From Fontisphaera persica (GTDB lineage: Bacteria > Verrucomicrobiota > Verrucomicrobiia > Limisphaerales > Fontisphaeraceae), in NCBI RefSeq assembly GCF_024832785.1, contig NZ_CP116615.1, forward strand, positions 1,736,001-1,800,000: 64,000 bases of DNA. Reading direction: 5' to 3'. This document shows, piece after piece, positions 26,489 through 59,051 of the stretch. The position numbers and the translations under genes were made by a program. The notes beneath the pieces were generated by a model. It did not search any database. It had not been told where the DNA came from and saw only the letters and a list, made by a program, of their open reading frames with translations. The stretch's first letter is position 1. Each line of letters opens with the position of its first letter.

Positions 26489-26564
26489 TGGTGGGCCCAG
26501 AGGGATTTGAACCCCCGACCAAGCGATTATGAGTCGCCTGCTCTAACCCCTGAGCTATGGGCCC
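26489..26564 (-). tRNA. tRNA-Met (anticodon CAU), CCA encoded
   Basis: The minus strand folds into a 76-nt cloverleaf. The acceptor arms GGGCCCA and TGGGCCC pair fully, and an A discriminator and genomic CCA end at 26489. The anticodon loop is CTCATAA (CAT at 26529-26531) on a 5-bp stem, and the T arm is GGGGG TTCAAAT CCCTC. A CAU anticodon could also belong to tRNA-Ile with lysidine; identity elements were not tested. The gene lies between the giant surface gene and an integrase, so it probably marks the integration site. The integrase is on the 5' side, which is the less usual arrangement. Confidence 0.93.
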
Positions 26565-26582
26565 ATCAAATTGATTTACAAG

Positions 26583-26645: not shown

Positions 26646-27794
26646 ATGAAACAGCGCAAACGCCAGGTTGAGCCGGATCGCCAGAAGTCAGACTGGCAAC
26701 CAACTCAACACAGCAACCTGATTCGTTACGTTCCATCCGGCGTATTCTACCTCAGAGCCAGGATCAACGGCAAGCTCCATTGGCAAAGCCTTAAAACCGA
26801 CGTTCTCAGCGTGGCCAAACTCCGCCTCGCCGACAAGATCAAGGAGAAGCGAGAGGAGACCGGGAGTGATCTTGCGGTGAAGGCGGGCAGGATGACCTTT
26901 GCCGATGCTCTCCAAGTTTTCCGGCACAGACTCGATGCTGATCCAGACCTCAAGGAGGGTGCAAAAGTTTATCGCCGGAAAACGATCATCTCCCTTCTGA
27001 AATCGTGGCCCAGCTTGGAACAGACCAACGTGAGCAAGATTTCCAAAGACGATTGCCTCGCGTGGGCGAAGCGCTTCGCTGCGGACTACAGCCCGTCGGT
27101 TTACAACAACACCGTCGGCACACTTCGCATGGTGCTCGACATTGCCATAGAGAAGGGAGCGCGCTCCGGCAATCCCGCGCAGCACATTTCAAAGCGCAGG
27201 ATTCAGCAGAAGGCTTTGAGCCTCCCGGAGCCAGAGGAATTTCTCAGGTTTGCGGAAGCCATCACGCAGGCTGGGGCATGGTGCAGTCAGGAGTGCGCCG
27301 ATCTGGTTCAATTCCTTGCTTACGGGGGGTTCCGCAAAACTGAAGGAGCCAACATTACATGGGCCGATTGCGATTTTGATCGTGGGCAAATTCGCGTGAG
27401 AATCACCAAGAATGGTGAGCCTCGAATCGTGCCGATGATTCCGGAGATGAAGACGCTTCTGGAACGCATCAAGGCAGAGCGAACCGAGATTCAACCCGCA
27501 GACGCTGTGATGAAGGTCCGGGAGTGTCAAAAAGCCATGGACCGAGCTGCCAAAGTGGTCGGCATACAACGGATCACCCATCACGACCTGCGCCACCTAT
27601 TTGCCACCCGTTGCATTGAATCCGGTGTAGACATCCCCACCGTCTCGCGCTGGTTGGGCCACAAGGACGGTGGTGCACTGGCAATGAAGGTGTACGGTCA
27701 TTTGCGCGACCACCACTCCACTGCCATGGCCCAGAAGGTGTCGTTCAGCCTCAAGCCCAAATCTAGATCGAATGCACAATTGGCGACCACCTAG
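26646..27794 (+). CDS. Tyrosine recombinase / phage-type integrase
   Basis: This 382-residue site-specific recombinase would integrate and excise the element at the adjacent tRNA. An N-terminal arm-binding part and a SAM-like core-binding domain (about 80-180) precede the catalytic domain (about 195-360). All catalytic positions are visible: R230 in GGFRKTEG, K255 in RITKNG, H313 and R316 in HHDLRH, H339 in LGHKDG, and the nucleophile Y350 in VYGHL. I chose the ATG at 26646; an in-frame TTG at 26571 would add 25 residues reading close to the tRNA and looks less natural. No ribosome binding site is seen. Orientation points away from the tRNA into the element. Confidence 0.92.
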   Translation: MKQRKRQVEPDRQKSDWQPTQHSNLIRYVPSGVFYLRARINGKLHWQSLKTDVLSVAKLRLADKIKEKREETGSDLAVKAGRMTFADALQVFRHRLDADPDLKEGAKVYRRKTIISLLKSWPSLEQTNVSKISKDDCLAWAKRFAADYSPSVYNNTVGTLRMVLDIAIEKGARSGNPAQHISKRRIQQKALSLPEPEEFLRFAEAITQAGAWCSQECADLVQFLAYGGFRKTEGANITWADCDFDRGQIRVRITKNGEPRIVPMIPEMKTLLERIKAERTEIQPADAVMKVRECQKAMDRAAKVVGIQRITHHDLRHLFATRCIESGVDIPTVSRWLGHKDGGALAMKVYGHLRDHHSTAMAQKVSFSLKPKSRSNAQLATT

Positions 27795-27819: not shown

Positions 27820-28908
27820 TCAGGGGTTGCGATGGATATCCCAGCCGGCGGTCATCCCCCTCCAGAAGCCGGAAGTGAAGGGAAAGCTGGGTGAGATCAT
27901 GACCCCGGTGGAGGGGTGGAGGCAAGTCGGGATGGTGGGGTTGGGAGAGGTTGAGGGGAGCCAGTGGATTAGGGCCCCGGCGAGGGCTGGGGCCTTGGCG
28001 TTGAGGATTTGGAGTGGGCTTTGCCATTCTTTGCCGCGGTTGGGGCGGACGAGGTTGAAGTACAGCCAGTAGGTGGTGATTTTGGCCCAAAAGTCTTGGG
28101 GGCTGGAGAAGGTTTCGCGGTCGAAGAATTCGTCTTCGACCAGGCGGTGGACGGTTTCGACGTCGCTTTGCCAGGTGTAGCGTTTGGGAGGGATGAAGCG
28201 GTGGTCGGAGCCGAGGGCGCGGACGGTGGCGGGGAGGCCTTGGTGGTGTTGGTTGACTTGGAATTCACTGCCGTTGTCGGTTTGCCAGACCAGGGTGGTG
28301 AGGTTGACGCCGTGGGCGGCGAGGTGGGCGGAGAGTTGTGTGGCCAGGAGGGTGGCGTAGGATTTGGAGAGTTCGTCGGCGTAGCCGGTGAAGCAGGCGC
28401 CGGAGACTGGTTCGCGGACGGTGTATTGGAAGCGGGGGAGGTGGAGGCGGTTCATTTGGGGCCAGTAATGGGGAATGTCCTGTAAATACTTGGTATCGGC
28501 GGAGAGTTGGGAGAAGAGTGGCCAGTTCCGTTTGAGGGCGCGGAGGAGTTTTTTGGTGGCGGGTTTCTTTTTGCGTGGGCGGAGGAGATGGTGTTGGCGG
28601 AGGACGCGGGCGATGGCGTTGTGGCTGCAGGGGAGGGCGGATCTGCGCTGGAGGCGTTCGGCGCCGAAGCCGGTTTGGTGGCGGAGTTTGACGATTTGGC
28701 CTTCGAGGCCGGAGGGGATACGGCGGGGGGAGCGTCGTGGGCGGCGGCTGTGTTCTTGGAGGGAGGAGGGCTTGCCGGGCACGTGGCGTCGGAGCCATTT
28801 ACGGACGGTGTTGCGGGAACAGCCGAACTCGCGGACGGCGGCTTTGATGCCGTGGGTTTTGGCGAAGGCGACGAGTTTTTGTCGCAACCAATGGCGGTGG
28901 GTGCGCAT
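27820..28908 (-). CDS. IS481-like DDE transposase
   Basis: This 362-residue transposase would excise and insert its own IS. The N-terminus is a helix-turn-helix (about 1-45, GIKAAVREFGCSRNTVRKWL) with a basic linker, followed by an rve-type integrase core. The catalytic triad is D138 (ADTKYL), D211 (WQTDNGSEF) and E251 (SDVETVHR). I start at the ATG at 28908; the frame extends back to 29019 but through the palindrome and inverted repeats. The frame leaves the IS at 27879, so about the last 20 residues are encoded by target DNA and the stop at 27820 is borrowed. Whether the native protein ends this way is unknown. Confidence 0.88.
   Translation of the reverse strand: MRTHRHWLRQKLVAFAKTHGIKAAVREFGCSRNTVRKWLRRHVPGKPSSLQEHSRRPRRSPRRIPSGLEGQIVKLRHQTGFGAERLQRRSALPCSHNAIARVLRQHHLLRPRKKKPATKKLLRALKRNWPLFSQLSADTKYLQDIPHYWPQMNRLHLPRFQYTVREPVSGACFTGYADELSKSYATLLATQLSAHLAAHGVNLTTLVWQTDNGSEFQVNQHHQGLPATVRALGSDHRFIPPKRYTWQSDVETVHRLVEDEFFDRETFSSPQDFWAKITTYWLYFNLVRPNRGKEWQSPLQILNAKAPALAGALIHWLPSTSPNPTIPTCLHPSTGVMISPSFPFTSGFWRGMTAGWDIHRNP
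27864..27906. repeat. Left target duplication and left inverted repeat of the IS
   Basis: The 15-bp direct repeat AGAAGCCGGAAGTGA (27864-27878) is followed by the terminal repeat beginning GGGAAAGCTGGG at 27880. It matches the right end in reverse complement over about 27 bp with two one-base gaps. Confidence 0.85.
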
Positions 28909-29072
28909 ACGGTACAATTCAAAGTAGGTGGTGTGCACGCCGGGAGGATAGCAGATGGGGCGCGCCGCTGCTGCACCTCCTCCGGAGGAGGTGCAGCAGC
29001 TCATCCTTGCGGCGTGCACTCAACACGTTGATCTTAACCACGGGGGGGTCATGATCTACCCAGTCTTTCCCA
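27879..29072 (-). mobile_element. IS481-like insertion sequence, 1194 bp
   Basis: Imperfect terminal inverted repeats of about 27 bp (27880-27906 and 29045-29071, both ending in GATCATGACCCC) bound the element. They are flanked directly by identical 15-bp copies of AGAAGCCGGAAGTGA. Length, a single transposase gene and a long target duplication fit IS481. The intact duplication and intact reading frame suggest recent insertion. The insertion separates the integrase end from a TTGACA promoter box that begins only five bases after the right duplication. Confidence 0.85.
28933..29019. other. Nested palindrome upstream of the transposase
   Basis: A perfect 34-bp palindrome without a loop lies at 28967-29000 (arm GCTGCTGCACCTCCTCC). 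It is enclosed by a second inverted pair, GTGCACGCC at 28933-28941 and GGCGTGCAC at 29011-29019. In the transposase message this would form a very stable hairpin 25-110 nt before the start codon. It could act as a block to read-through transcription, as a translational brake or as a transposase site. Confidence 0.7.
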
Positions 29073-29406: not shown

Positions 29407-29616
29407 ATGCCCCTAGGAAATCGCGATGAACTGCCGACCTTGGTCTATACAGTCCATGAGACGGCAGCGATACTAAAGGTCACCGAAAAAACGATCTACC
29501 GCTTGGTGGATCGTGAGTTGCTTAAGGCGTCCAACGCCCTCCGGCACCTGCGGATTACCCGCAAGAGTTTAGAGGAATTCCTCGCCAAAACTTCGGGGGA
29601 GGTGGGCCATGAATAA
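29407..29616 (+). CDS. Excisionase-like helix-turn-helix protein
   Basis: This 69-residue DNA-binding protein has the HTH_17/MerR-like excisionase fold: YTVHETAAILKVTEKTIYRL is the helix-turn-helix, followed by a wing (LKASNALRHLRITRKSLEEFL). Such proteins bend DNA for the integrase or act as small regulators. It is preceded by AAAGGGATCT, a possible ribosome binding site. It overlaps the next gene by 8 bases, so the two are translationally coupled. Proximity to the integrase supports an excisionase role, but a transcription factor role is equally possible from sequence. Confidence 0.8.
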   Translation: MPLGNRDELPTLVYTVHETAAILKVTEKTIYRLVDRELLKASNALRHLRITRKSLEEFLAKTSGEVGHE

Positions 29617-30571: not shown

Positions 30572-30958
30572 ATGAAAGCTAAAGCAAAGAAGATTCAGAA
30601 AGCAATTCTGGCTGAGGGTAGTTACCTTGCCAAACTCACCTCCACGAAATACCGCATGAACGGCAGCGAGGCCACGAAAGTCAGCCTCTGCTTCAAGATC
30701 GACGGCTGCGAAGAGGAAGTCATCAAAGAACTGCCGTTCAGTCTCGATGAAGGCACGCGGCTCCGACAGGACGTCGAAACTCTTTTGGGTCGCCAATTCA
30801 CGGCCAAAGAAGCAGAGGATGGCTACGAAATCGACAACCTGATCGGCAAGGCTTGTCAAATCGTCGTTGCTCATGAATCGGGTGCCGGTGGAAAGTCCAA
30901 GCCTGTTGTGAAGGTGATTATGGCCGCTCCCCAAGCCAGCTTGCCGATCAACGCCTAG
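30572..30958 (+). CDS. Hypothetical protein, possibly OB-fold-like
   Basis: A 128-residue acidic/basic mixed protein that I do not recognise with certainty. A lysine-rich start (MKAKAKKIQKAI) leads into alternating strands (GSYLAKLTSTKY, VSLCFKIDGC), and a later LIGKACQIVV strand. This resembles small phage proteins of the DUF669 type, and it shares the GxY ... LVGK layout with the protein at 34790. Those proteins are found beside recombination or replication genes, so a DNA-metabolism role is possible. The leader is A-rich without a Shine-Dalgarno sequence. Confidence 0.65.
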   Translation: MKAKAKKIQKAILAEGSYLAKLTSTKYRMNGSEATKVSLCFKIDGCEEEVIKELPFSLDEGTRLRQDVETLLGRQFTAKEAEDGYEIDNLIGKACQIVVAHESGAGGKSKPVVKVIMAAPQASLPINA

Positions 30959-31524: not shown

Positions 31525-32502
31525 ATGTCCTCTTCAACCAAACCGGCATCTCTCCCCATCCCACAACCACTTCCACTTACACCAGTGATTGCCAAAGCCA
31601 CTCCACAATTCCGATGGCCACCAATCGACATCGCCAGGCATCTCCTGGCCAATCCCAATCTCGTAGTCCCTCCGGCCATTGTTCACGGTCTGCTCCACAA
31701 AGGAACCAAAGGAGTGTTGGCGAGTTCAAGCAAGGCCGGGAAGACCTGGGTGCTTTTGGATTTGGCAGCCAGCATTGCTACAGGGACGCCTTTTCTCAAG
31801 TGGCCCACCACGCAAGGGAAGGTGCTGTTTGTCAACCTTGAGATCCAGCGGGCCTTCATCAAAGAGCGGCTCCGCATCATCCAGGAGCGCAAGAAACTGG
31901 ACAACCTCGACAATCTGGAAATCTGGACCTTGAGAGGATGGACGATGAACTTCGAGGATGTACAGGAGGAGTTGATTCGACGTGCCAAAGGCGAAGGCTA
32001 CTCGCTCATTGTTCTGGACCCGGCCTATAAGATGATGATTGGGAAGTCTGAGAACGCGGCGAGTGGGGTTGGTGTTCTCTGTCACAGTCTCGAACAAGTG
32101 GCGGTGGACACAGGAGCGCTGGTGATGTTTGCCCATCATTTCACGAAAGGAGGGCAGTCGAACAAATCCCCGATGGACAGGATGAGCGGCAGCGGAGTGT
32201 TTGCCAGAGATGCCGACTCGATCATCACCCTCACCGAGCACGCGGAGGAGAACTGCTACTCCGTGGAGATGACCCTGCGCAATCTCCCTCCACAAGCTCC
32301 TTTCGTGGTTCAGTGGAAGTTCCCATTGATGGTGGTGCGTGAAGATCTCGATCCAGCAGACCTCAAAGGAGTTGATCGGGGAGAGGGCAATGGGAATCCT
32401 GACCATCTCCTCGCAACCCCTCCTGGCATGATTGTCCCTGAAGAGGAGTCGTCAACAACCAACCCATCTCCCGCAGCAACCTCTTCAACAGCTCTCCCAT
32501 GA
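31525..32502 (+). CDS. RepA-like RecA-fold ATPase (AAA_25), putative replicative helicase
   Basis: This 325-residue protein has the RecA-type ATPase core of plasmid RSF1010 RepA and phage/plasmid helicase loaders. Walker A is SSSKAGKT (about 67-74), Walker B is LIVLDPAY (161-168), and a FAHHFTKGG motif (202-210) matches the conserved histidine-containing loop of this family. A proline-rich N-terminus and C-terminal tail (after 285) look disordered. In such systems the hexamer unwinds DNA at the origin. The iteron-like repeats and two-winged-helix protein downstream support a replication module. Helicase rather than another ATPase role is inferred. Confidence 0.8.
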   Translation: MSSSTKPASLPIPQPLPLTPVIAKATPQFRWPPIDIARHLLANPNLVVPPAIVHGLLHKGTKGVLASSSKAGKTWVLLDLAASIATGTPFLKWPTTQGKVLFVNLEIQRAFIKERLRIIQERKKLDNLDNLEIWTLRGWTMNFEDVQEELIRRAKGEGYSLIVLDPAYKMMIGKSENAASGVGVLCHSLEQVAVDTGALVMFAHHFTKGGQSNKSPMDRMSGSGVFARDADSIITLTEHAEENCYSVEMTLRNLPPQAPFVVQWKFPLMVVREDLDPADLKGVDRGEGNGNPDHLLATPPGMIVPEEESSTTNPSPAATSSTALP

Positions 32503-33100
32503 TGTCCTCTGTGCAGCCGAACCCTGAATACGCCCTTGCTTGATGAACTCGGACCTTCCTCCTCTTCCGCCCACTCATCCTGGGCTCGTGGAAGACCCAC
32601 CGCGAAGACGTCTCCTAACGCCTCCTCCAGCGGGCACCCAACTGGCTCCTCCAACAAAGCAACGGCGGGTAATCCGATGTGGTTTGGCCGATGAATCCAA
32701 GCTGGAAGGCAGGAAAGAGGCAGGTCAAACTCGGTCACCCCACCTGCGCGTATGCCGGTCTGCCCACCCCATACCCGGCAGCAGGATCACATTGCCACCA
32801 AACCATGCATCTCAACCGCCAGATCCGCACTCCTGAATGCGTGGCGACGGCCCCGCCTTCGGCCCCAGCGTTTCCACCTGCTCTTTCTGGGCTGACTCCA
32901 ACCACTTGCCTGGGACGGCGAGCCGAGCAGGGCGAGGCGAAGCAGCCAGGGAAGACCATGAATACATGTGACGCCATTTCGGATAGTTTTCGCCAGGTTT
33001 GGTTGAGCCAGCGCAGCGTTAATGAGCCGGAGCGCAGCGACGGCTCATGGGAAAAAGCATTTACCAGAAGTCATTTCCATAAGTATTACCAGAAGTATAA
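32503..33100. other. Stretch without a confident gene
   Basis: Several frames stay open here, but they are rich in proline, arginine and serine and look like by-products of composition. A frame ending at 33140 contains a more protein-like last third, starting MNTCDAISDSFRQVWLSQRS at 32958, but has no support. TACCAGAAGT occurs twice 25 bp apart (33062-33071 and 33087-33096), next to the iteron-like repeats. Confidence 0.4.
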
Positions 33101-33102
33101 TA

Positions 33103-33163
33103 GATGTGGCCATTTTGATCACGTGATGTGGCCAAATTGATTCTGTGATGTGGCCATTTTGAT
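33103..33163 (+). repeat. Three 22-bp iteron-like repeats
   Basis: GATGTGGCCATTTTGAT (33103-33119), GATGTGGCCAAATTGAT (33125-33141) and GATGTGGCCATTTTGAT (33147-33163) recur at exactly 22-bp spacing, two helical turns. A fourth, diverged copy (ATGTGGCCAAATCGTG) starts at 33231. Around it are an 11-bp inverted pair (33206-33216 with 33263-33273) and a repeated GAAAACGTGGAC (about 33185-33196 and 33245-33256). Placement between a RepA-like ATPase and an initiator-like gene suggests an origin. Confidence 0.65.
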
Positions 33164-33521
33164 AGGCCCTTTTGCCAACGTATGAAAAACGTGGACCAAA
33201 CCCCCGTAAACATTGGGTTTTGTGAAAAGCATGTGGCCAAATCGTGAAAACGTGGACGAGAGCCAATGTTTACAGCCCTTTCGGTCACTTTGGAGTGCAT
33301 CTGCTTGCCGACTTCTATTCCTTGCAACTCCGCGCAGCCACAACTCTACACGGATACGATATTAAGCAACAAATCAGAACTCCTCTCACGCACCATTTAT
33401 ACAATAACGGGTCAGTGGGAGGCTGGAAAGCGGCGTCCATGCCATTAAGAGCTTGTACAATCTCCCGCACTCTCGTACTATTTAGTATAGAACCGGCGTG
33501 ACAACCGATTCTTAAAACACA

Positions 33522-33654
33522 GCGCGAATATGATCACGACACATCAATCTTCAGGAGAGACTGGGCACCTCCGGCCTAGTCAACCGGGCATATTCGCGCC
33601 AGGAACACCACCTGCTTGGCCCAGTCTCTCCGCCCCTATTGAGCGCGAATATGA
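33522..33654. promoter_or_regulatory. Repeated GCGCGAATATGA motifs and inverted repeat at the initiator gene start
   Basis: GCGCGAATATGA lies at 33522-33533 and again at 33643-33654, where its ATG is the start codon of the next gene. A reversed copy, GCATATTCGCGC, is at 33588-33599. Between them, GGAGAGACTGGGC (33554-33566) and GCCCAGTCTCTCC (33619-33631) form perfect 13-bp arms. The first motif copy continues into sequence resembling the beginning of the gene. The arrangement suits an autoregulatory operator or a structured leader. Confidence 0.6.
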
Positions 33655-34556
33655 AAATCACGGCACCAATCTATAAGGAGGACACACACCTCCATCTCTT
33701 CAACAAGGACATCGCCGCGCAAAACTATGGCGGCTTGAAAAACCGACAATACGACATTGAGGGAGCCATCCTTTTGACTGACCTAGCCCGCAACATTGAA
33801 GGCATCAAGAAATACAGGAAGGATGGCAAAGTCGCTGCTCGAGAGATGGATGGGTGGTATTATACCTCCGTTAAGGACCTCGCCAAACGTCATCCCTACA
33901 TCAAAAAGCGCACTGTCAGGCGCATTTTAGCACGGCTTCGCAAGGAAAAGGTGCTGAAGACGACGAAAACGTTCCACAAGCGCAAGAGTATTCATACATT
34001 GTACTATAGTTTTGCCGACAAGGAACTCCACAAGGAAGCATTGGCCACGGAAGACGGCATCTCATTTTGGGTTGAGGACGCAGTGGAATGCGGCATTGAG
34101 GCCGCGATTCTTTTGCGGAACCTCACTTATGTGGAAGAGCACTGGATACATGGTGACGCTTGGATACAGTTAAATCCAGTAGAGTTTCTGGACGCGACAG
34201 ATCTGCCCATGTCCCCGCAGGCTGTACGTCGGGCATTGGTCACACTCGTGAAGAAGGGCAGGCTTGAGCGCCGACGCAACAATAAATACGGTGACAATTA
34301 CTATCTTTACCGTTTGGTGGATACGCCACACCTAAGAAGACGGGTAGGAACTGACGCCCTGCCCACGGAATGCTACGATCAACCATTCTTCGAAGACAAC
34401 TTGCCCTCCGAACACTATGAGAAGCTCCCTGCATTAACGGCCCACAGGCATCATAAAGACAAAGAGAATAGAATGCTAAAAGAGTACGCTGACCACGTGG
34501 CAAAGGTAAAGAGCCAGCCGAAGAGCACGCCAAGGCAGCGGAAGACAGTCACGTAA
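33651..34556 (+). CDS. Two-winged-helix protein, putative replication initiator
   Basis: This 301-residue protein contains two similar winged-helix halves. The first (about 25-105) has YDIEGAILLTDLARNIE then RTVRRILARLRKEKVLKT. The second (about 140-225) has CGIEAAILLRNLTYVEEHW then QAVRRALVTLVKKGRLERR. Duplicated winged helices are the hallmark of iteron-binding plasmid initiators and of phage replisome organisers. The basic C-terminal tail after 255 could bind DNA. The start is the ATG at 33651 inside a repeated motif; an in-frame TTG lies 12 bases earlier. Iteron-like repeats lie about 500 bp upstream. A transcription regulator is the alternative. Confidence 0.7.
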   Translation: MKITAPIYKEDTHLHLFNKDIAAQNYGGLKNRQYDIEGAILLTDLARNIEGIKKYRKDGKVAAREMDGWYYTSVKDLAKRHPYIKKRTVRRILARLRKEKVLKTTKTFHKRKSIHTLYYSFADKELHKEALATEDGISFWVEDAVECGIEAAILLRNLTYVEEHWIHGDAWIQLNPVEFLDATDLPMSPQAVRRALVTLVKKGRLERRRNNKYGDNYYLYRLVDTPHLRRRVGTDALPTECYDQPFFEDNLPSEHYEKLPALTAHRHHKDKENRMLKEYADHVAKVKSQPKSTPRQRKTVT

Positions 34557-40644: not shown

Positions 40645-41133
40645 ATGATCGTCCTCGAAACCAACTACAGCAAAAAACTCGGCCTTCCTGGCTACTCTTC
40701 CCATCAGTTCAGCATCACCCTCAAAACCGAGATTGCTGACCTTGCCCAAGTCCAAACCGAGAGCAACCGCCTCTATCAACTCCTGCAGCAGAGCGTTGAT
40801 GCTTCGATCAAGGAAGTCGGTTTCCTGCCCACCGAAGTCCCCATCCAGAACAGGAACGGGAATGGCAATGGAAACGGACACCACAACGGCAACGACACCT
40901 GGGAATGCAGCGACAAGCAAAAGGCGCTCATCCTGAAGATCGTCGAGGAGCACAAGCTCGACAAGAAGGAGATTGAAGCCCTGGCGCAAGACCGGTTTGG
41001 CAAAGGTGTCAAAGCCCTGAACAAGCTGGAGGCGTCTCAAATCATCGAAATCCTCCTCCAAGAACACAGCGACAACAACAAAGGCAATGGTCGTCGCTTC
41101 GGCTCGCGTTACCAGAAAGCAGGTGCCAAGTGA
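40645..41133 (+). CDS. Phage/plasmid protein with recombinase-type C-terminal helical domain
   Basis: A 162-residue protein. The N-terminal half (1-65) resembles small proteins of unknown function in phage recombination clusters. A glycine/asparagine-rich linker (NRNGNGNGNGHHNGND) joins it to a C-terminal domain (about 88-143). That domain reads SDKQKALILKIVEEHKL then IEALAQDRFGKGVKALNKLE, close to the helical tail found at the end of many phage ssDNA-annealing and RecT/Rad52-type proteins. It overlaps the following nuclease by 4 bases (ATGA-type), suggesting they act together. The leader is A/C-rich without a Shine-Dalgarno sequence. Confidence 0.7.
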   Translation: MIVLETNYSKKLGLPGYSSHQFSITLKTEIADLAQVQTESNRLYQLLQQSVDASIKEVGFLPTEVPIQNRNGNGNGNGHHNGNDTWECSDKQKALILKIVEEHKLDKKEIEALAQDRFGKGVKALNKLEASQIIEILLQEHSDNNKGNGRRFGSRYQKAGAK

Positions 41134-41951
41134 TCGCCGTCCTCGATCCAGTTCAGGTTGCTGCCAGACCTGAGCCCAACCCCACGGAAGAACTTCAGAA
41201 AACAGTCTCGGCCTCCCGGCTCAACTGCTGGCTTCAATGCCGGCTGAAGTTCTTCTTCCGCTACGTCCTCCAACTTCCACGACCTCCCTCCGCTGCCATG
41301 TTCGTTGGCAGTATCGCCCACCAAGTCCTCCAGCAGTGGAACCACGGGAGATGGCGAAAGGAGCCGTTCCAGACTGAGAAGTTCAAAGCCTGGTTCGACT
41401 CGCAATGGACCGAGGAGCAGAAAACCTCCAAGATCAAATGGGACGATGACCAGGCCGATGAACGCGCCTCTGCCTGGAAAACGCTGGAACACTACTTCCT
41501 CGAAACGCCCATCAAAGCAGATGAGCGTCCAGAGGCGGTGGAGGTTCCGGTTGAAGCAGACTTGTCTCATCATGGTCTGCCCAGGCTCATTGGCATACTC
41601 GACCTCGTGAGGGCTGGCGGAACCATCGTGGACTTCAAGGTGACCGGGAAGACACCAGACCCTGAACAAGCCATCCACCAGCACGAGATCCAGCTCTCCT
41701 GCTATGGCGTCCTCTACAGGGATGCCACCAGCAGGAAGGAGGCGGGTCTTGAACTGCATCACCTGGTCAGAACCAAGACCCCCAAGCTGATCGTCACCCG
41801 CATTGGCCCCATCACCCAGCAGCAGGAAACCCGGCTGTTCAAAGTGATGGAGTCCTACGTTGATGGAGTTGGCAGACAGGACTTCGTGCCTTCTCCCAGC
41901 TTCGGTTGTGCTGGCTGCGAATACTTCACCGAGTGCCGGCGCTGGTCGTAA
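41130..41951 (+). CDS. PD-(D/E)XK exonuclease, Cas4/RecB C-terminal type with probable Fe-S cluster
   Basis: A 273-residue RecB-family nuclease. The ordered motifs are QCRLKFFFRY, H64 in GSIAHQVL, D158 in IGILDLV, and D168-F-K170 in IVDFKVTGK, all expected for the PDDEXK_1/Cas4 family. Cysteines at the N-terminus (C33/C37) and near the end (C260, C263, C269 in GCAGCEYFTECRRW) would hold an iron-sulfur cluster. Such enzymes process DNA ends in recombination. Its overlap with the recombinase-tail gene upstream suggests a Red-like end-processing pair. There is no Cas gene nearby. Confidence 0.87.
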   Translation: MIAVLDPVQVAARPEPNPTEELQKTVSASRLNCWLQCRLKFFFRYVLQLPRPPSAAMFVGSIAHQVLQQWNHGRWRKEPFQTEKFKAWFDSQWTEEQKTSKIKWDDDQADERASAWKTLEHYFLETPIKADERPEAVEVPVEADLSHHGLPRLIGILDLVRAGGTIVDFKVTGKTPDPEQAIHQHEIQLSCYGVLYRDATSRKEAGLELHHLVRTKTPKLIVTRIGPITQQQETRLFKVMESYVDGVGRQDFVPSPSFGCAGCEYFTECRRWS

Positions 41952-42040
41952 ACCTTCCACCCAGCCGGGTACACTCTGACAGATGAAGCCCACTGTGGGC
42001 AGGATCGTTGTCAGGTGTGCCCGGTCCTCTTTTCCCCAAC

Positions 42041-42382
42041 ATGCACCACTTCATCATCCAATCCATGCTCCAGTCGCTTAAGCCGGTCCTGAAAGACAAG
42101 GCCAGGGCAGAGCGCCTCCTGGAGTGCTTCTGGCAGGACAAAATCGCGCTGGTCTGGGACACGGAAGATGTTCATCGGGCAGCTAACGAAATCGAGGTGG
42201 CCCTGACTGAAACCGAAGCCCGTGAACTCCTCCATGACCTGCACGAGCACCACAACCCGCAATACGGCCTGCAATGGAAAGACGTCACGGAACAAATCCG
42301 GGATGATGTCCTGGGCCGTGCAATGACCAAGCAGGAGGTGAACCGCTTTGTGAAGAAGGACATCCTCACCATCCACCGCTAG
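42041..42382 (+). CDS. Hypothetical helical protein
   Basis: A 113-residue mostly helical protein (ARAERLLECFWQDKIALVW, IEVALTETEARELLHDLHEH) that I do not recognise. The ATG at 42041 follows TTTCCCCAAC with no Shine-Dalgarno sequence. A hairpin follows closely. Confidence 0.65.
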   Translation: MHHFIIQSMLQSLKPVLKDKARAERLLECFWQDKIALVWDTEDVHRAANEIEVALTETEARELLHDLHEHHNPQYGLQWKDVTEQIRDDVLGRAMTKQEVNRFVKKDILTIHR

Positions 42383-42400
42383 CCAACCCTCAACCAACTC

Positions 42401-42434
42401 AGAGCCGGGTGCCCTCAGAAGCATCCGGCTCTTT
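42401..42434 (+). terminator. Terminator-like hairpin with AGAGCCGG core
   Basis: AGAGCCGGGTGC (42401-42412) pairs with GCATCCGGCTCT (from 42421), with one G-T pair, followed by TTTCATTT. It ends only a few bases before the next ATG. Confidence 0.7.
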
Positions 42435-42442
42435 TCATTTCC

Positions 42443-42907
42443 ATGACCCTCAAACCCTACACCCCACACGAATTCAAAATCATGCGAGTCCGCGAATGTC
42501 TGCCCATGACTGAAACCGTGGACACACCCGAAAGAGCTGCTGCGTATTGGAGAGCCAACATCCCTCAAGCGCCGTGGTTCGATCCCGCCAAGGAAGCAGT
42601 GGTCGTGCTGGTCCTCAACACCCGCAGACGCATTCTTGGCCACAACCTCGTCACCCTGGGCTCGCTGGATACCTGCATCGTGACCCCGCTGTCTGTGTTC
42701 CGGCCTGTGATCGTGATGGCCGGCAGTGCGATCATCCTCATGCACCAGCACCCATCAGGCGACTGTACCCCATCTGAAGGGGACATCAGAGTGACCCGTG
42801 ACCTAATCCGCGCTGGTCAACTGCTCAAGATTGATTTGGTGGATCACGTCATCATCGGCGAGCCCAACCACGCCAGCCTCCGAAACATGGGCTATTTTTC
42901 GATTTAG
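42443..42907 (+). CDS. RadC-like JAB/JAMM-domain protein
   Basis: A 154-residue RadC family protein lacking the N-terminal helix-hairpin-helix of chromosomal RadC. The JAMM metal site is intact: E51 in DPAKEAVVVLVLN, H101 and H103 in MHQHPSGDCTPSEGD, and D114. The end, DHVIIGEPNHASLRNMGYF, is typical. RadC-like proteins are common on mobile elements and plasmids, where the exact function is uncertain; a protease/isopeptidase-type or DNA-related role has been proposed. It is flanked by two hairpins and so may be transcribed alone. Confidence 0.9.
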   Translation: MTLKPYTPHEFKIMRVRECLPMTETVDTPERAAAYWRANIPQAPWFDPAKEAVVVLVLNTRRRILGHNLVTLGSLDTCIVTPLSVFRPVIVMAGSAIILMHQHPSGDCTPSEGDIRVTRDLIRAGQLLKIDLVDHVIIGEPNHASLRNMGYFSI

Positions 42908-42935
42908 GAGTCCGCTGCATCCCACCCCATCCCCA

Positions 42936-42966
42936 GAGCCGGAGGTCAGCAGTGGATCTCCGGCTC
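42936..42966 (+). terminator. Terminator-like hairpin with GAGCCGG core
   Basis: GAGCCGGAG (42936-42944) pairs perfectly with CTCCGGCTC (42958-42966), followed by GCTCTCTTTG. Confidence 0.6.
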
Positions 42967-43018
42967 GCTCTCTTTGTCCCCAAACCATCAACCAAAAACA
43001 TCAAACCAACACAACATC

Positions 43019-44107
43019 ATGCCAACCCTCGTTGAAGAAACTCTCGACAAAACAACCCTCTATTACCGCGAAGGCGGTTCCGACAAGGTTTACCAGTGCG
43101 CGATTGAACCCGCTGGCAATCGCTTTGTCGTGAACTTCGCCTTTGGTCGTCGCGGCTCCACGTTGAACACCGGCACCAAAACCAATGTGCCTGTGGATTA
43201 CGATGCTGCCAAACGCATCTACGACAAGCTGGTGAAGGAGAAGACCGCCAAAGGCTACACCCCTGGCCCAGACGGCAATCCTTACCACAACTCGCCCAAA
43301 GCAGACCGTTTCACCGGCCTCCTGCCTCAATTGCTGAACCCGATTGACGAAGCCGAAATGAACCGCCTGCTCACGAATGACAACTTCTGTATGCAGGAAA
43401 AGTTCGATGGGCGGCGCATCCTGATCCAGAAGCAGGGCACCACAATCACTGGTATCAACAAGAAGGGCCTGGTGGTTGGTCTGCCGGAATGTGTCGTGCA
43501 GGCGGCTCAGTGCTTGCCTGGCGACTTCATTCTGGATGGTGAGTGCATCGGGGACACGTTCTTCGTGTTCGACATGCTCTCCAACCACACCGATCTGCGC
43601 GTCCTGCCCTATCGCCAACGCCTGGTGCAGCTCTACAATCTGATCGCCTCGGCTCAACAACGCGCCATCCGGCTGGTGGAAACCGCGTTCAAGCACGATG
43701 AAAAGCAACGCCTGCTGAAAGACCTCCGCGCTGCCCGAAAGGAAGGTGTGGTGTTCAAGCTGTTGACTGCTGCTTACACGCCTGGTCGTTCCAATTCCGG
43801 AGGTCCCCAACTGAAGCACAAGTTCTATGCCACGCTCTCGGCAGTGGTCGCCAAGATCAATGCCCAGCGCAGCGTGGAGATTCGGTTGTTGGGTGATGAC
43901 GGCTGGCAGGCGGCGGGCAACGTCACCATCCCAGCCAATCAATCCGTGCCACAGGTCGGTCAGGTGGTGGAGATTCGCTACCTCTACGCCTTCAAGGAGA
44001 GCGGTGTCCTCTACCAGCCCGTGTTCCTGGGCCTTCGCAGTGATGTGGAGCCAATGGAATGCCTCGCCACGCAGTTGAAATTCAAAGCCGAGGAGGACGC
44101 ATGTTGA
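43019..44107 (+). CDS. ATP-dependent DNA ligase with N-terminal WGR domain
   Basis: A 362-residue ligase that seals nicks. The N-terminal WGR-like domain (about 12-75: LYYREGGSDKVYQC, FVVNFAFGRRGSTL) binds DNA in PARP-type proteins. The nucleotidyltransferase core follows: motif I K128 in EKFDGRR, motif III LDGECIG (E175), motif IV EGVVFKL (242-248) and motif V LKHKFY (K266, K268). An OB-fold lies at about 270-350. The start at 43019 follows an A/C-rich leader (CAACACAACATC) without a Shine-Dalgarno sequence. The stop overlaps the next gene in ATGTTGA. WGR-ligase fusions occur on bacterial mobile elements. Confidence 0.9.
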   Translation: MPTLVEETLDKTTLYYREGGSDKVYQCAIEPAGNRFVVNFAFGRRGSTLNTGTKTNVPVDYDAAKRIYDKLVKEKTAKGYTPGPDGNPYHNSPKADRFTGLLPQLLNPIDEAEMNRLLTNDNFCMQEKFDGRRILIQKQGTTITGINKKGLVVGLPECVVQAAQCLPGDFILDGECIGDTFFVFDMLSNHTDLRVLPYRQRLVQLYNLIASAQQRAIRLVETAFKHDEKQRLLKDLRAARKEGVVFKLLTAAYTPGRSNSGGPQLKHKFYATLSAVVAKINAQRSVEIRLLGDDGWQAAGNVTIPANQSVPQVGQVVEIRYLYAFKESGVLYQPVFLGLRSDVEPMECLATQLKFKAEEDAC

Positions 44108-44274
44108 TCAACCGCCGCCACGTGAAACTGTTCGCGTTGGAGATGGCCATGGCTCGCGCCCACAAGTTCACCCGCGTCAGCCAGGAGTTCTTCCTGAAAT
44201 GCGAGGCGAACCTGAAGGAGTTTATCAGGGGCCAAGTGCATCGGCATCCCTCTGTCGGCAAGACCATCCGGTAG
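44101..44274 (+). CDS. Small basic hypothetical protein coupled to the ligase
   Basis: A 57-residue protein (MLINRRHVKLFALEMAMARA, then a basic end HRHPSVGKTIR). Its ATG overlaps the ligase stop in the heptamer ATGTTGA, so it is likely translated by re-initiation. No family is recognised. Confidence 0.6.
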   Translation: MLINRRHVKLFALEMAMARAHKFTRVSQEFFLKCEANLKEFIRGQVHRHPSVGKTIR

Positions 44275-44290
44275 TCCTTTCTCCCCAAAG

Positions 44291-44376
44291 CGAACCAGTT
44301 GGTTCGGTCCTCCGGCAAACCGGCACCAATTGGTGCCGGTCACTTGGCCAGCCATGCCTTCGGGTGTGGCTGGCCA
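44291..44376 (+). other. Cluster of three perfect hairpins
   Basis: Three stems follow each other: CGAACCA/TGGTTCG at about 44291-44306; a 22-bp perfect palindrome centred on CAATTG at 44319-44340; and TGGCCAGCCA (44345-44354) with TGGCTGGCCA (44367-44376). The last is followed by TTCTCTTT and the next ATG at 44385. They could terminate transcription, or act as protein-binding or RNA-processing sites. Confidence 0.6.
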
Positions 44377-44384
44377 TTCTCTTT

Positions 44385-44624
44385 ATGCAAACCATCCAAA
44401 AACCGCCTCTTCAACGCGGCCCCATCCGTTACCGCAATCATTTCCGGTGGCGCGTCATGCCTCCGGATCACGCTGCGGAACACGGCTTCTTTGATCGTTC
44501 CTTCGAGAACAAGAAGAAAGCTGTGGCCTACCAGAAGCAGGTCAAAGCCAAGTTCCCGGATCATCCCTGCTGCCTGATTGATACAGGACGCTGGTATGAC
44601 TCCATGGGGCGCATCATCCATTAA
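44385..44624 (+). CDS. Small basic hypothetical protein
   Basis: A 79-residue protein rich in aromatic and basic residues (IRYRNHFRWRVMPPDHAAEH, then KKAVAYQKQVKAKFPDHPCC). I know no family for it. It lies 28 bases before the clamp-like gene and likely shares its transcript. Confidence 0.6.
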   Translation: MQTIQKPPLQRGPIRYRNHFRWRVMPPDHAAEHGFFDRSFENKKKAVAYQKQVKAKFPDHPCCLIDTGRWYDSMGRIIH

Positions 44625-44652
44625 CCCTCAACCAAGAAAGCAACCCCTCATA

Positions 44653-46110
44653 ATGAAGAACCTCATCGAACTCCCTGTCTCCGAACTCAAAACCGCGCTG
44701 GCCGGCCTCAACAAGATCGTCAGCAAGTCCACCTCCCTGCCGGTCCTCCGCAGCATTCGGGTGAACCGCTCCTCGGAAGGGCGGGTCATCCTCGAAGCCA
44801 CCGACCTCGACACCGCTGCCTGCTACGAGACTGTGAACCAGCAGCCCAATGCCGCCTGCGAAGTCCTGGTCCCCATTGAAACGCTCACCAAAGCCGTCAA
44901 AAACTCCGCCAGTAACAGCCGCATCGCGCTGCTCAAGGAATCCAAGACCGCCCTCACGCTCCGCACCTTCATTGGCGAAAATCCCGTGGACCAGAAGATC
45001 GAAACGCTGGAACCCAAGGAATGGCCTCCGGTGCCTCGCGCTGAACTGCCACCGATTATCCTCGACCAGAAACTGCGGGAAGCCGTGACCGATGCGATGG
45101 AATGCAGCAGTGAGGAAGCCACCCGGGCAGCGCTTCAAGGAGCCTGGATTGATCCAAGCGATCCCCAGGCGCACTACGTTCTCGGCACGGATGGGCGGCA
45201 CCTCTTCACCGCCAACTCCTTCTGCCTGGACCTCAAGGAAGCCGTGCTGCTGCCCAACAAGAAGTTCGTGCAGTGGAGCGGATTCAAGGAGGACGGCGAT
45301 TGGAAACTGTCGCTGATGCCCGCCAAGACCAAGGATGAACAAGCTTGGCTCCAGTTGCAGTCCGATCACTGGACCTTCCTCAGCCGGCGTCAGGATGCGA
45401 CCTGTCCGAATTGGCGTCAGGCTGTCCCTTCGCCTACCGATGCCAAGACCATCCTCCAATTCAGTGAAGCCTCGGTGGAGTTCCTGCAACAACTCCTGCC
45501 CAAACTGCCCGGCAACGACGACATCAACCGTGGCATCACCCTCGACGTCACCAAGACCCTGACCGTGAAGGCCCATGCCAGAGGCTCCTCGGATTGGACC
45601 AGTGTGGTGGTGCCGGAGGTGAAGATCACCGGCAAACCCAACCTGATCTGCCTTAACCGGGATTACCTGCTGAAGGCGCTCAGTTTTGGTCTGCACAACC
45701 TCGACCTCTACGACGAGCTTTCGCCGATGGTCTTCTCCACTGCCGGCAAGCGAATGGTCGTCATGCCCATCCGGCTGGAAGCGACTGCCCCTGTGCCCCA
45801 GCCTGAAGCCCAAGTCGCGGAGCCTGCCAAGGAATCTGCCACTGCCACACCCAACCCCGAAACCCCAACCACCGAAAGGAACACCATGCCGAAAGCCACC
45901 GAAACCCAGACCGCCGAGACCGCTGAGTCCCCGGTCAAATCCCTGGTGCAGCACATCGAAACCATCAAGGAATCGCTCAAAGGAGTGGTCCGCGATCTCA
46001 ATGACCTGCTGGACCTGGTGAAGAAGACCGAGAAGGAGAAGAAGGCCAGCGAGAAGGAAATCGAGGCAGTCCGGGAGAAACTGCGCGAGATCCAGAGCGT
46101 GAAGATCTAG
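44653..46110 (+). CDS. DNA polymerase sliding-clamp (DnaN-like) homologue with C-terminal coiled coil
   Basis: A 485-residue protein. Residues 1-385 follow the bacterial beta-clamp plan: VSKSTSLPVLRSIRVN, VILEATDLDTAACYE, a central domain with VLGTDGRHLFTANSFCLDL, and the terminal LNRDYLLKALSFG ... MVVMPIRLE, which matches the VMPMRL ending of DnaN. After a proline/threonine-rich linker (390-410) comes a charged coiled coil (about 425-485) absent from ordinary clamps. An internal ATG at 45886 after GAAAGGAACACC could give the coiled coil as a separate product. The start at 44653 follows an A/C-rich leader. A processivity role in element replication is inferred. Confidence 0.8.
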   Translation: MKNLIELPVSELKTALAGLNKIVSKSTSLPVLRSIRVNRSSEGRVILEATDLDTAACYETVNQQPNAACEVLVPIETLTKAVKNSASNSRIALLKESKTALTLRTFIGENPVDQKIETLEPKEWPPVPRAELPPIILDQKLREAVTDAMECSSEEATRAALQGAWIDPSDPQAHYVLGTDGRHLFTANSFCLDLKEAVLLPNKKFVQWSGFKEDGDWKLSLMPAKTKDEQAWLQLQSDHWTFLSRRQDATCPNWRQAVPSPTDAKTILQFSEASVEFLQQLLPKLPGNDDINRGITLDVTKTLTVKAHARGSSDWTSVVVPEVKITGKPNLICLNRDYLLKALSFGLHNLDLYDELSPMVFSTAGKRMVVMPIRLEATAPVPQPEAQVAEPAKESATATPNPETPTTERNTMPKATETQTAETAESPVKSLVQHIETIKESLKGVVRDLNDLLDLVKKTEKEKKASEKEIEAVREKLREIQSVKI

Positions 46111-48625: not shown

Positions 48626-49546
48626 TTACCCTCTCGTTGATTTCAAGTGTTTGCATCGCAACAGCCGCTCCACGGCCTTTTCGTAAATGCTCCGGGGACC
48701 GTGACACCGGATCTCCTGGATTCTCTCTACACGCCCAACTTCATAGAATCCAACGCCTGCTAGAACAGGCTCTGATCCAACGATGTCGGTTACAGTGGAC
48801 CGGGACGTCTTCTTTGAGAGAGGAACACGCCATACTCCACCACCGCTCATTCCCTGAAATGTCGGGATCGCATCACTCTTCGGCCCATAGGTGATGCCGA
48901 GTTCCAAGAAGTCATAGCTGTTCTTCCATCGCCAGCGCCTGGATATGCCCGAGGCGGCGCCCCAACCTTCGAGGAACAGCACTTCACGAAAACCGCTCTG
49001 CGGAGCGAGCAAATCCTTCTGTAGATCGGGGTATCCTGAAAAAATGAAATAGCCGGCGTTGGGGAGAGCATTACGAAGTTTGATGGCTCGTTTATGTTTC
49101 AGGTTGTAGAATTGCTTTTTTGCCTTGATCGTTCCGATCAGTGGCTCAGGGAGAACGATCAACGAAAGGTCCGGTCCAGTTGATTCTCGTTTCGGTGTCG
49201 CGATATCAACAAGGCCACAGTATTGCAGTTGCAGTTCGTAGCAATGGGCGAAGTCGGCAACCAGGAGTCCGAGTTTTTGAGAGCTGTTGAAATCAAAACG
49301 ACGACTCGGATCGTGGGGGTTGTGGATGACATGGTGAGCGGTCAGGACACCGAATGTGTTGCCACACTTGATGAACGTGCCGGACCCGACCAGGTTGCCA
49401 TCCAAAATCAGGGCTGTCGAGAACTGGCTGACAAAAGCTGCAGCATCCTCTTGGACCGGATCTGGAATCTGCACAATCTGGAGCCGGAAATGTCTTCGTT
49501 CTCGCCTCACAGGAGAAAGCATTCGTTCAACCTCATTAACAATCAA
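48626..49546 (-). CDS. Trypsin-like serine protease (stand-alone copy)
   Basis: Up to 306 residues with a chymotrypsin-fold catalytic triad: histidine in VLTAHHVI (H71 or H72), D126 in GPDLSLIVL and S234 in GMSGGGVW. There is no signal peptide, so it probably acts in the cytoplasm. The first codon of the longest frame is a TTG at 49546; an ATG eight codons later (49522) is equally likely. It is transcribed against its neighbours, away from the Ycf35-like gene. Cytoplasmic trypsin-like proteases are frequent in defence islands. A second, different copy lies at 58197-59048. Confidence 0.82.
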   Translation of the reverse strand: MIVNEVERMLSPVRRERRHFRLQIVQIPDPVQEDAAAFVSQFSTALILDGNLVGSGTFIKCGNTFGVLTAHHVIHNPHDPSRRFDFNSSQKLGLLVADFAHCYELQLQYCGLVDIATPKRESTGPDLSLIVLPEPLIGTIKAKKQFYNLKHKRAIKLRNALPNAGYFIFSGYPDLQKDLLAPQSGFREVLFLEGWGAASGISRRWRWKNSYDFLELGITYGPKSDAIPTFQGMSGGGVWRVPLSKKTSRSTVTDIVGSEPVLAGVGFYEVGRVERIQEIRCHGPRSIYEKAVERLLRCKHLKSTRG

Positions 49547-53178: not shown

Positions 53179-54624
53179 CTACTGCGCAGCCTCAAGCAAC
53201 GGCTGGAGTGCCTTTACCTTGTTCGTAACACGCGAGTCTAGTCTCCACTTGTCAGGTGGTGCTTGAAGACCCGTCAGAAAGTCTATGAGTTCCGCCATAG
53301 CAGGAAGCGCTGCTTTCTGCTTCATCCGCGTGAGCAACTCCATATACTTGTCACGGCAAAGCTTAAACTGAAGGCGACTCGCTATTGTTGGATCTTCAAA
53401 TGCTAAGACGGCCATCATGGCTTTGGCGATGTCAAATTGTTCGATTAGCTTCAAATACACTGGCTCCGCCGCCCATGCGACACCATTTCCATTCGTTAGG
53501 TAAACATAAACCAATGTTCTAACGTACTTTTGAGCGATTATTGAAGGAATAGCGCCGTGGGAGCCAACTAGATTCGCTAACTCCTGCGCAAACGCCGGTT
53601 CGTTGTAAAAGTTATTCATGGCGTTATGCACAGTCAACAACCTGGTAAGAACTTCCTCCAGTTGGACAGCCTTCAAATCCTCAGGCAGGTATTGCAGCCC
53701 CCCAACAAGAGCAAGAAACTGGTGTGCAAGATTCTTAGAGCCTTGATCATTGGAAGCCACGAACTTCCCGTACTTCACGCCAAAACCTCCCCGCGTCGCT
53801 TCCGAAACACGCAACCAGAGGGTGGGAATCAGCTTGTGAATGTTGTCCCGCGTTGATGGAGAAGTATCGTTGCGGGTGTAAATGCCAAACAATCCTGCAG
53901 CGAGGCTGTCCACTTGTTCCTGGGTAAGGTTTGCAAAGAACACCCCGATCTCTTTGGCGGACTTCTCGTCCAACACTGTGGTCTTGATACTTCCCAGCAG
54001 CGACTTTATCTCCACTGTGGCGTTGGAGAGCGGCAGTGTTATTACCTCTTTGGCACACGTTTCAAGCCACGACAGCAACTGCAAGCCGGTGATTTCGTTT
54101 TGATTGGGGTGCGCTGCGCTGACCCAATTGCGCATAAAGCGGATGTAGTCCAGGTGCTTGAAACCAATCTCACCGATCAAGCCTATCGCATGGGCACCGC
54201 GGATAAGTTCGTCGTCGGATATTTTATCAAGGTCGCTTGCGTCCTTTAGGTGCTTCCTTCGCTCTTCGCTACTTACTGCATTGTCGTAAAAATAGGACAG
54301 GTCATACTGCGCGACGCGAGTGCGTAACTGAATAATGGTTTCATCCCATAAGTAGTTGAGGGCAGCGTCGAACAGTCCAGTTGCCACAGCGGATACATAC
54401 TTGGAGAGATAGACCGCACTCAAGCGATCTGCATGAGGGATGCGGCGTACGACTCTGGCGATGTTATCGAGGTTGACCTTGCGCTCTTCAATTCCCGCAA
54501 GAATGCCCTCGTGGGGCAGGTCGTGAAGTTTGAGGAATGTCAGAAGCTGGGTTTCAAAACGCGCCACCTCGACGATTTCCTTCGATTGCTGTTGAACGAT
54601 GAGTTGTTGGTCGGTGTTGCTCAT
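53179..54624 (-). CDS. Last gene of the Argonaute operon; helical protein with HEPN-like motif
   Basis: A 481-residue, almost entirely helical protein I cannot place in a named family. Residues 160-173 read YIRFMRNWVSAAHP, where R165-N166 and H172 fit the RN-x(5)-H pattern of HEPN ribonucleases, preceded by the helix expected there (GAHAIGLIGEIGFKHLD). The remaining 300 residues (FGIYTRNDTSPSTRDNIHKL, VRTLVYVYLTNGNGVAWAAE) look like helical repeats. I start at the ATG at 54624; a frame to 54786 overlaps the upstream gene. It lies 49 bases after the nuclease stop, so it belongs to the operon. A toxic RNase effector is possible but unproven. Confidence 0.7.
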   Translation of the reverse strand: MSNTDQQLIVQQQSKEIVEVARFETQLLTFLKLHDLPHEGILAGIEERKVNLDNIARVVRRIPHADRLSAVYLSKYVSAVATGLFDAALNYLWDETIIQLRTRVAQYDLSYFYDNAVSSEERRKHLKDASDLDKISDDELIRGAHAIGLIGEIGFKHLDYIRFMRNWVSAAHPNQNEITGLQLLSWLETCAKEVITLPLSNATVEIKSLLGSIKTTVLDEKSAKEIGVFFANLTQEQVDSLAAGLFGIYTRNDTSPSTRDNIHKLIPTLWLRVSEATRGGFGVKYGKFVASNDQGSKNLAHQFLALVGGLQYLPEDLKAVQLEEVLTRLLTVHNAMNNFYNEPAFAQELANLVGSHGAIPSIIAQKYVRTLVYVYLTNGNGVAWAAEPVYLKLIEQFDIAKAMMAVLAFEDPTIASRLQFKLCRDKYMELLTRMKQKAALPAMAELIDFLTGLQAPPDKWRLDSRVTNKVKALQPLLEAAQ

Positions 54625-54673
54625 AGCGGTGTGTATTGGGCGTCTGGCTGTCGGATGGCCAATGGGGACGATT

Positions 54674-59048: not shown

Positions 59049-59051
59049 AAA

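Follow-up and report, generated by a model that had tools for sequence, protein, structure and literature searches.

Does a genomic island lodged in a tRNA gene carry the means of its own replication? The question is raised by positions 31525-34556 of the window (the whole 64,000-nucleotide stretch analysed here, G000:C1:1736001-1800000, G000 being a genome that consists of a single 4.73-Mb contig), where an array of short direct repeats, or iterons, lies between a gene for a RepA-like ATPase and a gene for a protein with two winged-helix halves. An earlier note had read this locus as a plasmid-type origin inside an integrated element. The analysis presented here indicates that it is probably an initiator-iteron origin of phage (lambda-O-like) type, which would serve an integrative element of 47 kb as its replication module; that this module is active today is perhaps half as probable.

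The iteron array and the proteins that flank it

The ingredients named in the earlier note, namely the ATPase, three repeats at exactly 22-bp spacing with a fourth copy, inverted repeats and a protein with two winged-helix halves, all held up on analysis, and are arranged in the window as follows:

31525-32502, + strand: AAA_25/RepA-like ATPase of helicase type (Pfam AAA_25, E=9.8e-31)
33050-33099, no strand: AT-rich stretch, candidate unwinding element (68% AT; two TTACCAGAAGT repeats 25 bp apart)
33074-33101, + strand: sigma70-like promoter match TTTCCA-16-TATAAT (consensus match only), ending just before iteron 1
33103-33124, + strand: iteron 1
33125-33146, + strand: iteron 2
33147-33168, + strand: iteron 3
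33186-33273, + strand: degenerate GTGGAC half-copies at 33191 and 33252, with the inverted repeat 33206-33216/33263-33273
33231-33242, + strand: iteron 4, core only
33521-33654, no strand: interleaved inverted repeats A1-B-A'-B'-A2 in the leader, the last of which overlaps the initiator start codon
33651-34556, + strand: double-winged-helix initiator of 301 amino acids (aa), recognized by PHROG matches, a family profile and half-versus-half profiles

The first three iterons start at 33103, 33125 and 33147, that is at a spacing of exactly 22 bp; over the 22 bp, copy 1 shares 77% identity with either of the other two, and differences among the three affect only 2 of 17 core positions. Scored for three equally spaced copies, the array reaches 47 of 51, far above the maxima reached in 60 shuffles of the whole window (34) and in 1000 shuffles of 32500-33650 (35). 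With up to two mismatches, the 17-bp motif occurs at 12 sites in the 4.73-Mb genome, and its exact matches are iterons 1-3 only. The core of the fourth copy, 83 bp from copy 3 start to start, is identical to that of copy 2 at 12 of 12 positions and is enclosed by the inverted repeat GTAAACATTGG. The array begins 548 bp upstream of the initiator ATG (33651), and two sigma70-like consensus matches are present in 32480-33720, compared to a shuffle mean of 0.6.

In the leader, an exact inverted pair of 13 nt (33554-33566/33619-33631) has no equally long counterpart in 60 shuffles, and GCGCGAATATG recurs at 33522 (+), 33589 (-) and 33643 (+); considered as a pseudoknot or attenuator, these repeats give fold z-scores of -2.19 (RNA) and -2.12 (DNA). 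An open reading frame (ORF) of 48 codons, starting at ATG 33530 within 33521-33676, overlaps the initiator start. Together, the repeats and this ORF could provide leader-peptide or attenuator control of the initiator, whose start is more likely at ATG 33651 than at TTG 33639.

The assignment of the ATPase is strengthened by its sole solved-structure match at E<=1, which is RepA of plasmid RSF1010 (1g8y, E=1.3e-10); among the PHROGs, a family of DNA primases is matched best, at positions 355-548 of 747, and the protein is encoded in 9 of 58 genomes, its own included. It matches 168 plasmid records; of the 15 matches listed, 14 are to RepA of plasmids with an annotated RepC, at 29.8-30.3% identity (57-61 bits for IncQ RepA), and the other, to a Paenibacillus plasmid not of IncQ type, is as close as those to phages (40.9%, 157 bits). 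Phage records matched number 312, the 15 listed being 34.5-42% identical with up to 164 bits. Judged from these alignments, the ATPase is nearer to phage primase-helicases than to IncQ RepA. A second gene for a RepA-like ATPase, 41% identical, is found elsewhere in the genome (L029, G000:C1:1170827-1171597) in surroundings that look prophage-like by eye.

The initiator matches eight PHROG families of replication initiation proteins or O-like or DnaD-like loaders at E<1e-4 (best phrog_11233, E=1.9e-12; phrog_428, 1.2e-10; phrog_678, 1.1e-9), and in five of the eight two stretches of it are matched, while no Rep_3 (WH1-WH2), RepC or other plasmid Rep family of Pfam is found at E<=1. When profiles of its two halves, each built from seven sequences (the window initiator and six relatives), are compared by hhalign, they match each other with probability 98.7 (E=1.8e-16), so the protein consists of a winged-helix unit that has been duplicated internally. 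The reading of the earlier note stands as far as a replication-type module in an integrated element is concerned, but 'plasmid-type' is too specific, because the initiator matches phage O-like and initiator PHROGs and no plasmid Rep family of Pfam, and the ATPase is nearer to phages.

Repeat arrays in related initiator genes

Relatives of the initiator are detectable with a family profile, a single-protein search being insufficient: the latter returned only the protein itself in 58 genomes and in 387 genomes, nothing in viral contigs, one plasmid at 28% and one phage match at E=0.02. Counting its own genome in each case, the phrog_11233 family was found in 8 of 196 genomes of the order, the double-winged-helix family in 11 of 320 with a profile made from ten aligned cores (alignment A2, in which the window initiator is 17-30% identical to the others), and in 6 of 387 genomes in a phylum-wide profile search, where the other five matches are partial (E=3.6e-9 to 3.2e-4); outside the order, this phylum-wide search gave partial matches only, in 5 genomes. 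When 621 aa of the initiator of locus L081 were used as the query, three weak partial phage matches were obtained and nothing in plasmids or viral contigs.

The initiator family is associated with repeat arrays in 9 of the 13 relatives tested, and most of the tested members keep the array inside their own gene, whereas here it is intergenic. The test covered spacings of 17-25 bp in each of the 13 relative genes and the window gene, together with 1 kb of either flank; the count leaves out the two fragments into which one gene is broken (G580:C24, L105) and a second, weak match in G483:C30. Arrays with a spacing of 20 or 21 bp, equalled by no more than 2 of 200 shuffles, were found in L078, L079, L080, L081, L082, L084, L085, L106 and L107. 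All nine lie in or overlap the respective initiator gene, one of them straddling the stop codon, and start 733-1161 bp after the mechanically called start, past the second winged helix, a position that in L106 and L107 was judged by eye from the translation. As a control, the same score restricted to 20-22 bp was computed on 142 ORFs; the lowest three-copy score of the nine relatives (30) was reached by a single control ORF, which is the window's ATPase gene, whose 1-kb flank holds the window's own iterons.

Two of these arrays are particularly informative. In L107 (G656:C31, 7140-7219) four 20-bp repeats run through all three codon phases of an open frame; in L085 (G483:C305, 237-2316) the initiator gene is split into an N-terminal double-winged-helix ORF and a separate second ORF that ends in a stretch similar to the L079 C-terminal region, and the array of about ten 21-bp repeats, part of it non-coding, continues beyond the stop codons. 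In these two loci it is therefore the DNA repeat that is maintained, not a repeat in the protein.

The integrative element and its relatives

The locus belongs to an integrative element, or genomic island, that is inserted in a tRNA gene. An integrase, att repeats and an empty site are all found, which bears out the integrated element of the earlier note. Its ends and the genes that precede the module are the following:

26489-26564, - strand: tRNA-Met (CAT), the integration target
26524-26566, no strand: attL, a 43-bp direct repeat in the 5' half of tRNA-Met (BLAST and the empty site in G001)
26646-27794, + strand: tyrosine integrase (Phage_integrase, E=7.9e-22), counted from its ATG, the mechanical ORF beginning at TTG 26571
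29407-29616, + strand: excisionase-like HTH_17 protein, xis (HTH_17, E=9.7e-13; phrog_66 excisionase, E=2.3e-6)
30572-30958, + strand: SSB-like protein (weak, phrog_378 SSB at E=0.037 only)
G000:C1:1809537-1809579 (73537-73579 on the window scale, outside the window): attR, identical to attL

A BLAST search of the tRNA-Met region against its own genome returned an identical 43-bp copy 47,013 bp away, and G001, a genome of the same genus, has the empty site, with a single copy of the repeat. The left flank is 73% identical over 2.2 kb in G001 and runs into the repeat; on the right, the flanks align again (74% over 1.2 kb) from 104 bp beyond the repeat in G001 and 164 bp beyond it in G000. From the repeats and the empty site, the element is therefore defined as G000:C1:1762524-1809579, 47,013 bp; the part of it inside the window has a GC content of 0.557, compared to 0.615 in the left flank. 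Because the insertion lies in the 5' half of tRNA-Met, this half of the tRNA and the sequence preceding the gene are both supplied by the element. Such a 5' fragment is the rarer geometry, seen in 159 of 3919 islands by the figures that the Islander database account gives (PMC4383910). A second tRNA-Met lies at about G000:C1:1847323, and a transposase-like ORF with weak HTH_32 and rve_3 matches (27820-29019) sits between integrase and xis.

Parts of this arrangement recur in relatives. L080 has an integrase (57% identity) and a xis-like protein (47%, there on the opposite strand) in common with the element, and its integrase gene likewise begins next to a tRNA 5' end, in that case of tRNA-Lys. 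A tRNA-Gly adjoins the integrase gene of L104 (26% match), which lies 3 kb from the gene for a short double-winged-helix protein of 304 aa on the same contig, and a tRNA-Cys adjoins that of L083, where the integrase was recognized by eye only. Homologues of the SSB-like protein (28-31% identity) are encoded upstream of the initiator gene in L078, L079 and L081; at the position of the ATPase, L081 has a gene with DNA-primase PHROG matches, which, read by eye, looks like an SF3-type helicase. In these three loci, then, the SSB-like gene accompanies the initiator, and the helicase-type gene can differ.

Further genes of note lie elsewhere in the element. A DNA-metabolism run (41130-46110) encodes a PD-(D/E)XK nuclease, RadC, a WGR-domain ligase and a homologue of the sliding clamp (phrog_947, E=3.5e-27), and an AAA+ ATPase at 51418-53094 matches a phage family of unknown function (phrog_8638, E=5.3e-139). 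At the right end (53179-63883 and L038:84-8036), PADLOC recognizes a defence-type cargo, with an Argonaute (pAgo_II, E=2.3e-212), a helical-REase-like partner whose ORF overlaps it, a DrmMI-like methylase, a PDC-S02 protein, and DpdE/DrmD-like and DruE-like helicases. Weak Trypsin_2 matches occur at 58197-59048 and 48626-49546.

Comparison with known replication systems

The gene content of the element was compared with replicon and element classes by scanning 29 of its ORFs with Pfam (thresholds 1, 0.01 and 0.1) and 18 with PHROG. Membership of the IncQ (RSF1010-type) class was rejected, as only the RepA-like ATPase was found and the RepC and RepB features were not. The likeness to IncQ consists of this ATPase, of a separate candidate iteron-binding protein and of an iteron spacing which in IncQ plasmids is 20-22 bp; on the other hand, there is no RepC match in Pfam, no primase or mob gene among the 29 ORFs, and the ATPase is closer to its phage counterparts. 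A DnaA-dependent iteron plasmid of Rep_3 type was likewise rejected, there being no Rep_3 match at E<=1 and no DnaA box by the iterons. As for a prophage, no terminase, capsid or tail genes were found in the scanned ORFs (29 with Pfam, 18 with PHROG, which are part of those of the element), with the exception of a weak terminase-small-subunit match (E=0.025) of the xis-like protein. Relaxase and type IV secretion genes, which would mark an ICE or IME, were also absent from the 29 ORFs, five right-end ORFs having been covered by PADLOC only and some small ORFs by neither scan.

The closest known mechanism is that of phage lambda, whose origin is located inside gene O. Iterons are four in number and 19 bp long in the case of the O protein, as its description states (PMC3985674). 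The present locus agrees with this system in the O-like PHROG matches of its initiator and in its array of about 20-bp iterons; it differs in the upstream position of the iterons relative to the gene, in the two winged helices of the initiator, and in the adjoining gene, which encodes a helicase-type ATPase, not a helicase loader. Among integrated islands, Salmonella genomic island 1 (SGI1) has been described as carrying, next to its initiator gene, an iteron origin (rep-oriV) from which the excised form is replicated, an arrangement which the present element would share; the SGI1 iterons, however, are of 17 bp, in four copies and downstream of rep, with a putative DnaA box, its initiator has a RepA_C domain, and the sections consulted mention no helicase gene (PMC7433901). 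The PLE of Vibrio cholerae is an integrated satellite with an initiator (RepA) and three iterons in non-coding DNA, which is the same plan, but with iterons that are semi-palindromes of about 30 bp and an initiator of RepA_N type (PMC8263062).

Contrary evidence and alternative explanations

Several observations weigh against the reading of 31525-34556 as an origin. A 20-22-bp array is absent in 4 of the 13 relatives, L083 (a pair only), L086, L104 and L108; L086 does have a 24-bp triple in the gene, far downstream (1 of 200 shuffles as good), and L104 one outside the gene (4 of 200), but these were not counted, because their spacing and place differ and their 20-22-bp scores are ordinary (77 and 134 of the 142 controls as good, respectively). 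L082 is weak by the four-copy score, which 6 of 142 controls equal. Three weight matrices derived from the relatives' iterons do not single out those of the window: the best iteron site ranks 76, 74 and 17 among about 128,000, and the cluster 445th, 108th and 477th among 12,774 windows. Homology of the iteron sequences between window and relatives was thus not demonstrated by this approach; a string, GGCCAAATC, common to the L106 copies and iteron 4 is suggestive only. Unlike in lambda, no array is found inside the window's initiator gene. No consensus DnaA box is present near the iterons, where the closest forms have two mismatches (TTWTNCACA occurs in the window only at 18390 and 53624). Moreover, none of nine whole contigs (eight with an initiator gene, one with the ATPase only) appears circular, as no exact terminal overlap of 20-400 bases was found, and the single-sequence AlphaFold model of the initiator is poor (predicted local distance difference test, pLDDT, 39.7) and unfit for a fold search.

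The remaining contrary points also speak for a decayed phage or plasmid replicon, that is a former origin, now non-functional, in an element which is passively maintained, an explanation that we regard as unlikely though deserving of attention. The C-terminal region of about 400 aa common to L079 and L081, and in part to the second ORF of L085, is lacking in the window initiator, and nothing in the element matches it convincingly; the Pfam scan of 29 ORFs turned up no primase; the first P-loop residue of the ATPase is S, compared to G in a 58%-identical relative in L027; and the transposase-like ORF between integrase and xis suggests that the element may be partly decayed. On the contrary, the frames of ATPase and initiator are open, the iterons have diverged at so few core positions, and the L104 protein is likewise short and near an integrase gene, though without a detected array.

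A smaller probability still is assigned to the proposal that the repeats are a regulatory operator only, at which the two-winged-helix protein or another regulator of the element represses the abutting promoter, with no working origin. Indeed, the promoter-like match ends at 33101 and iteron 1 begins at 33103, and the leader is filled by inverted repeats up to the start codon; an operator would nevertheless be hard to reconcile with arrays that in nine relatives are placed far behind the start of the initiator gene, within it or overlapping it, with family matches that are to replication initiators, and with the adjoining genes for a helicase-type ATPase and an SSB-like protein. Finally, a solo end of an IS21-type transposon, elements which have short spaced terminal repeats and whose ends the GTGGCCA...TTGA style of the iterons calls to mind, is extremely improbable and was dismissed as unsupported, given that a single PF01695 (IstB-like) match in the genome exceeds the cut-off, at a distance of 1.38 Mb, with another falling below it, and that exact-pattern scans of genome contigs and viral contigs gave one match in all (L013), in an unrelated ORF.

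Proposed mechanism and significance

If the locus is an initiator-iteron origin, the double-winged-helix protein would bind the 22-bp iterons upstream of its gene and open the neighbouring AT-rich stretch, onto which the RepA-like ATPase would be loaded as the helicase, priming and polymerase being presumably provided by the host or by a helper. The likely use of such a system would be the copying of the excised element: given an origin-like module of its own, and similar arrays in the initiator genes of several related elements, the island may copy itself once excised. Because a promoter-like sequence sits just before iteron 1, binding of the initiator may also turn down its own transcription.

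More tentatively, and with the balance tilted somewhat against so complete a picture, the proteins may form an undescribed family of double-winged-helix initiators whose origin lies either within the gene, with a spacing of 20-21 bp that at times breaks the codon phase and in one case with the gene split in two, or outside it, at 22 bp; the family would power integrated elements, some of them beside tRNA genes, and would here amplify an excised defence island with Argonaute and restriction-type genes. A search of open-access papers, itself weak evidence, turned up no account of double-winged-helix initiators that carry iterons inside their genes.

Islands with iteron origins are already known, SGI1 and PLE being examples with an origin of their own in well-studied bacteria; what is met here is a variant of the same idea in a different bacterial group, with an initiator family of paired winged helices whose repeats lie mostly within or beside its own gene. 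If the module is functional, the copy number of a defence island could go up on excision, and the initiator family offers a natural series for studying how an origin passes from coding to non-coding sequence or the reverse.

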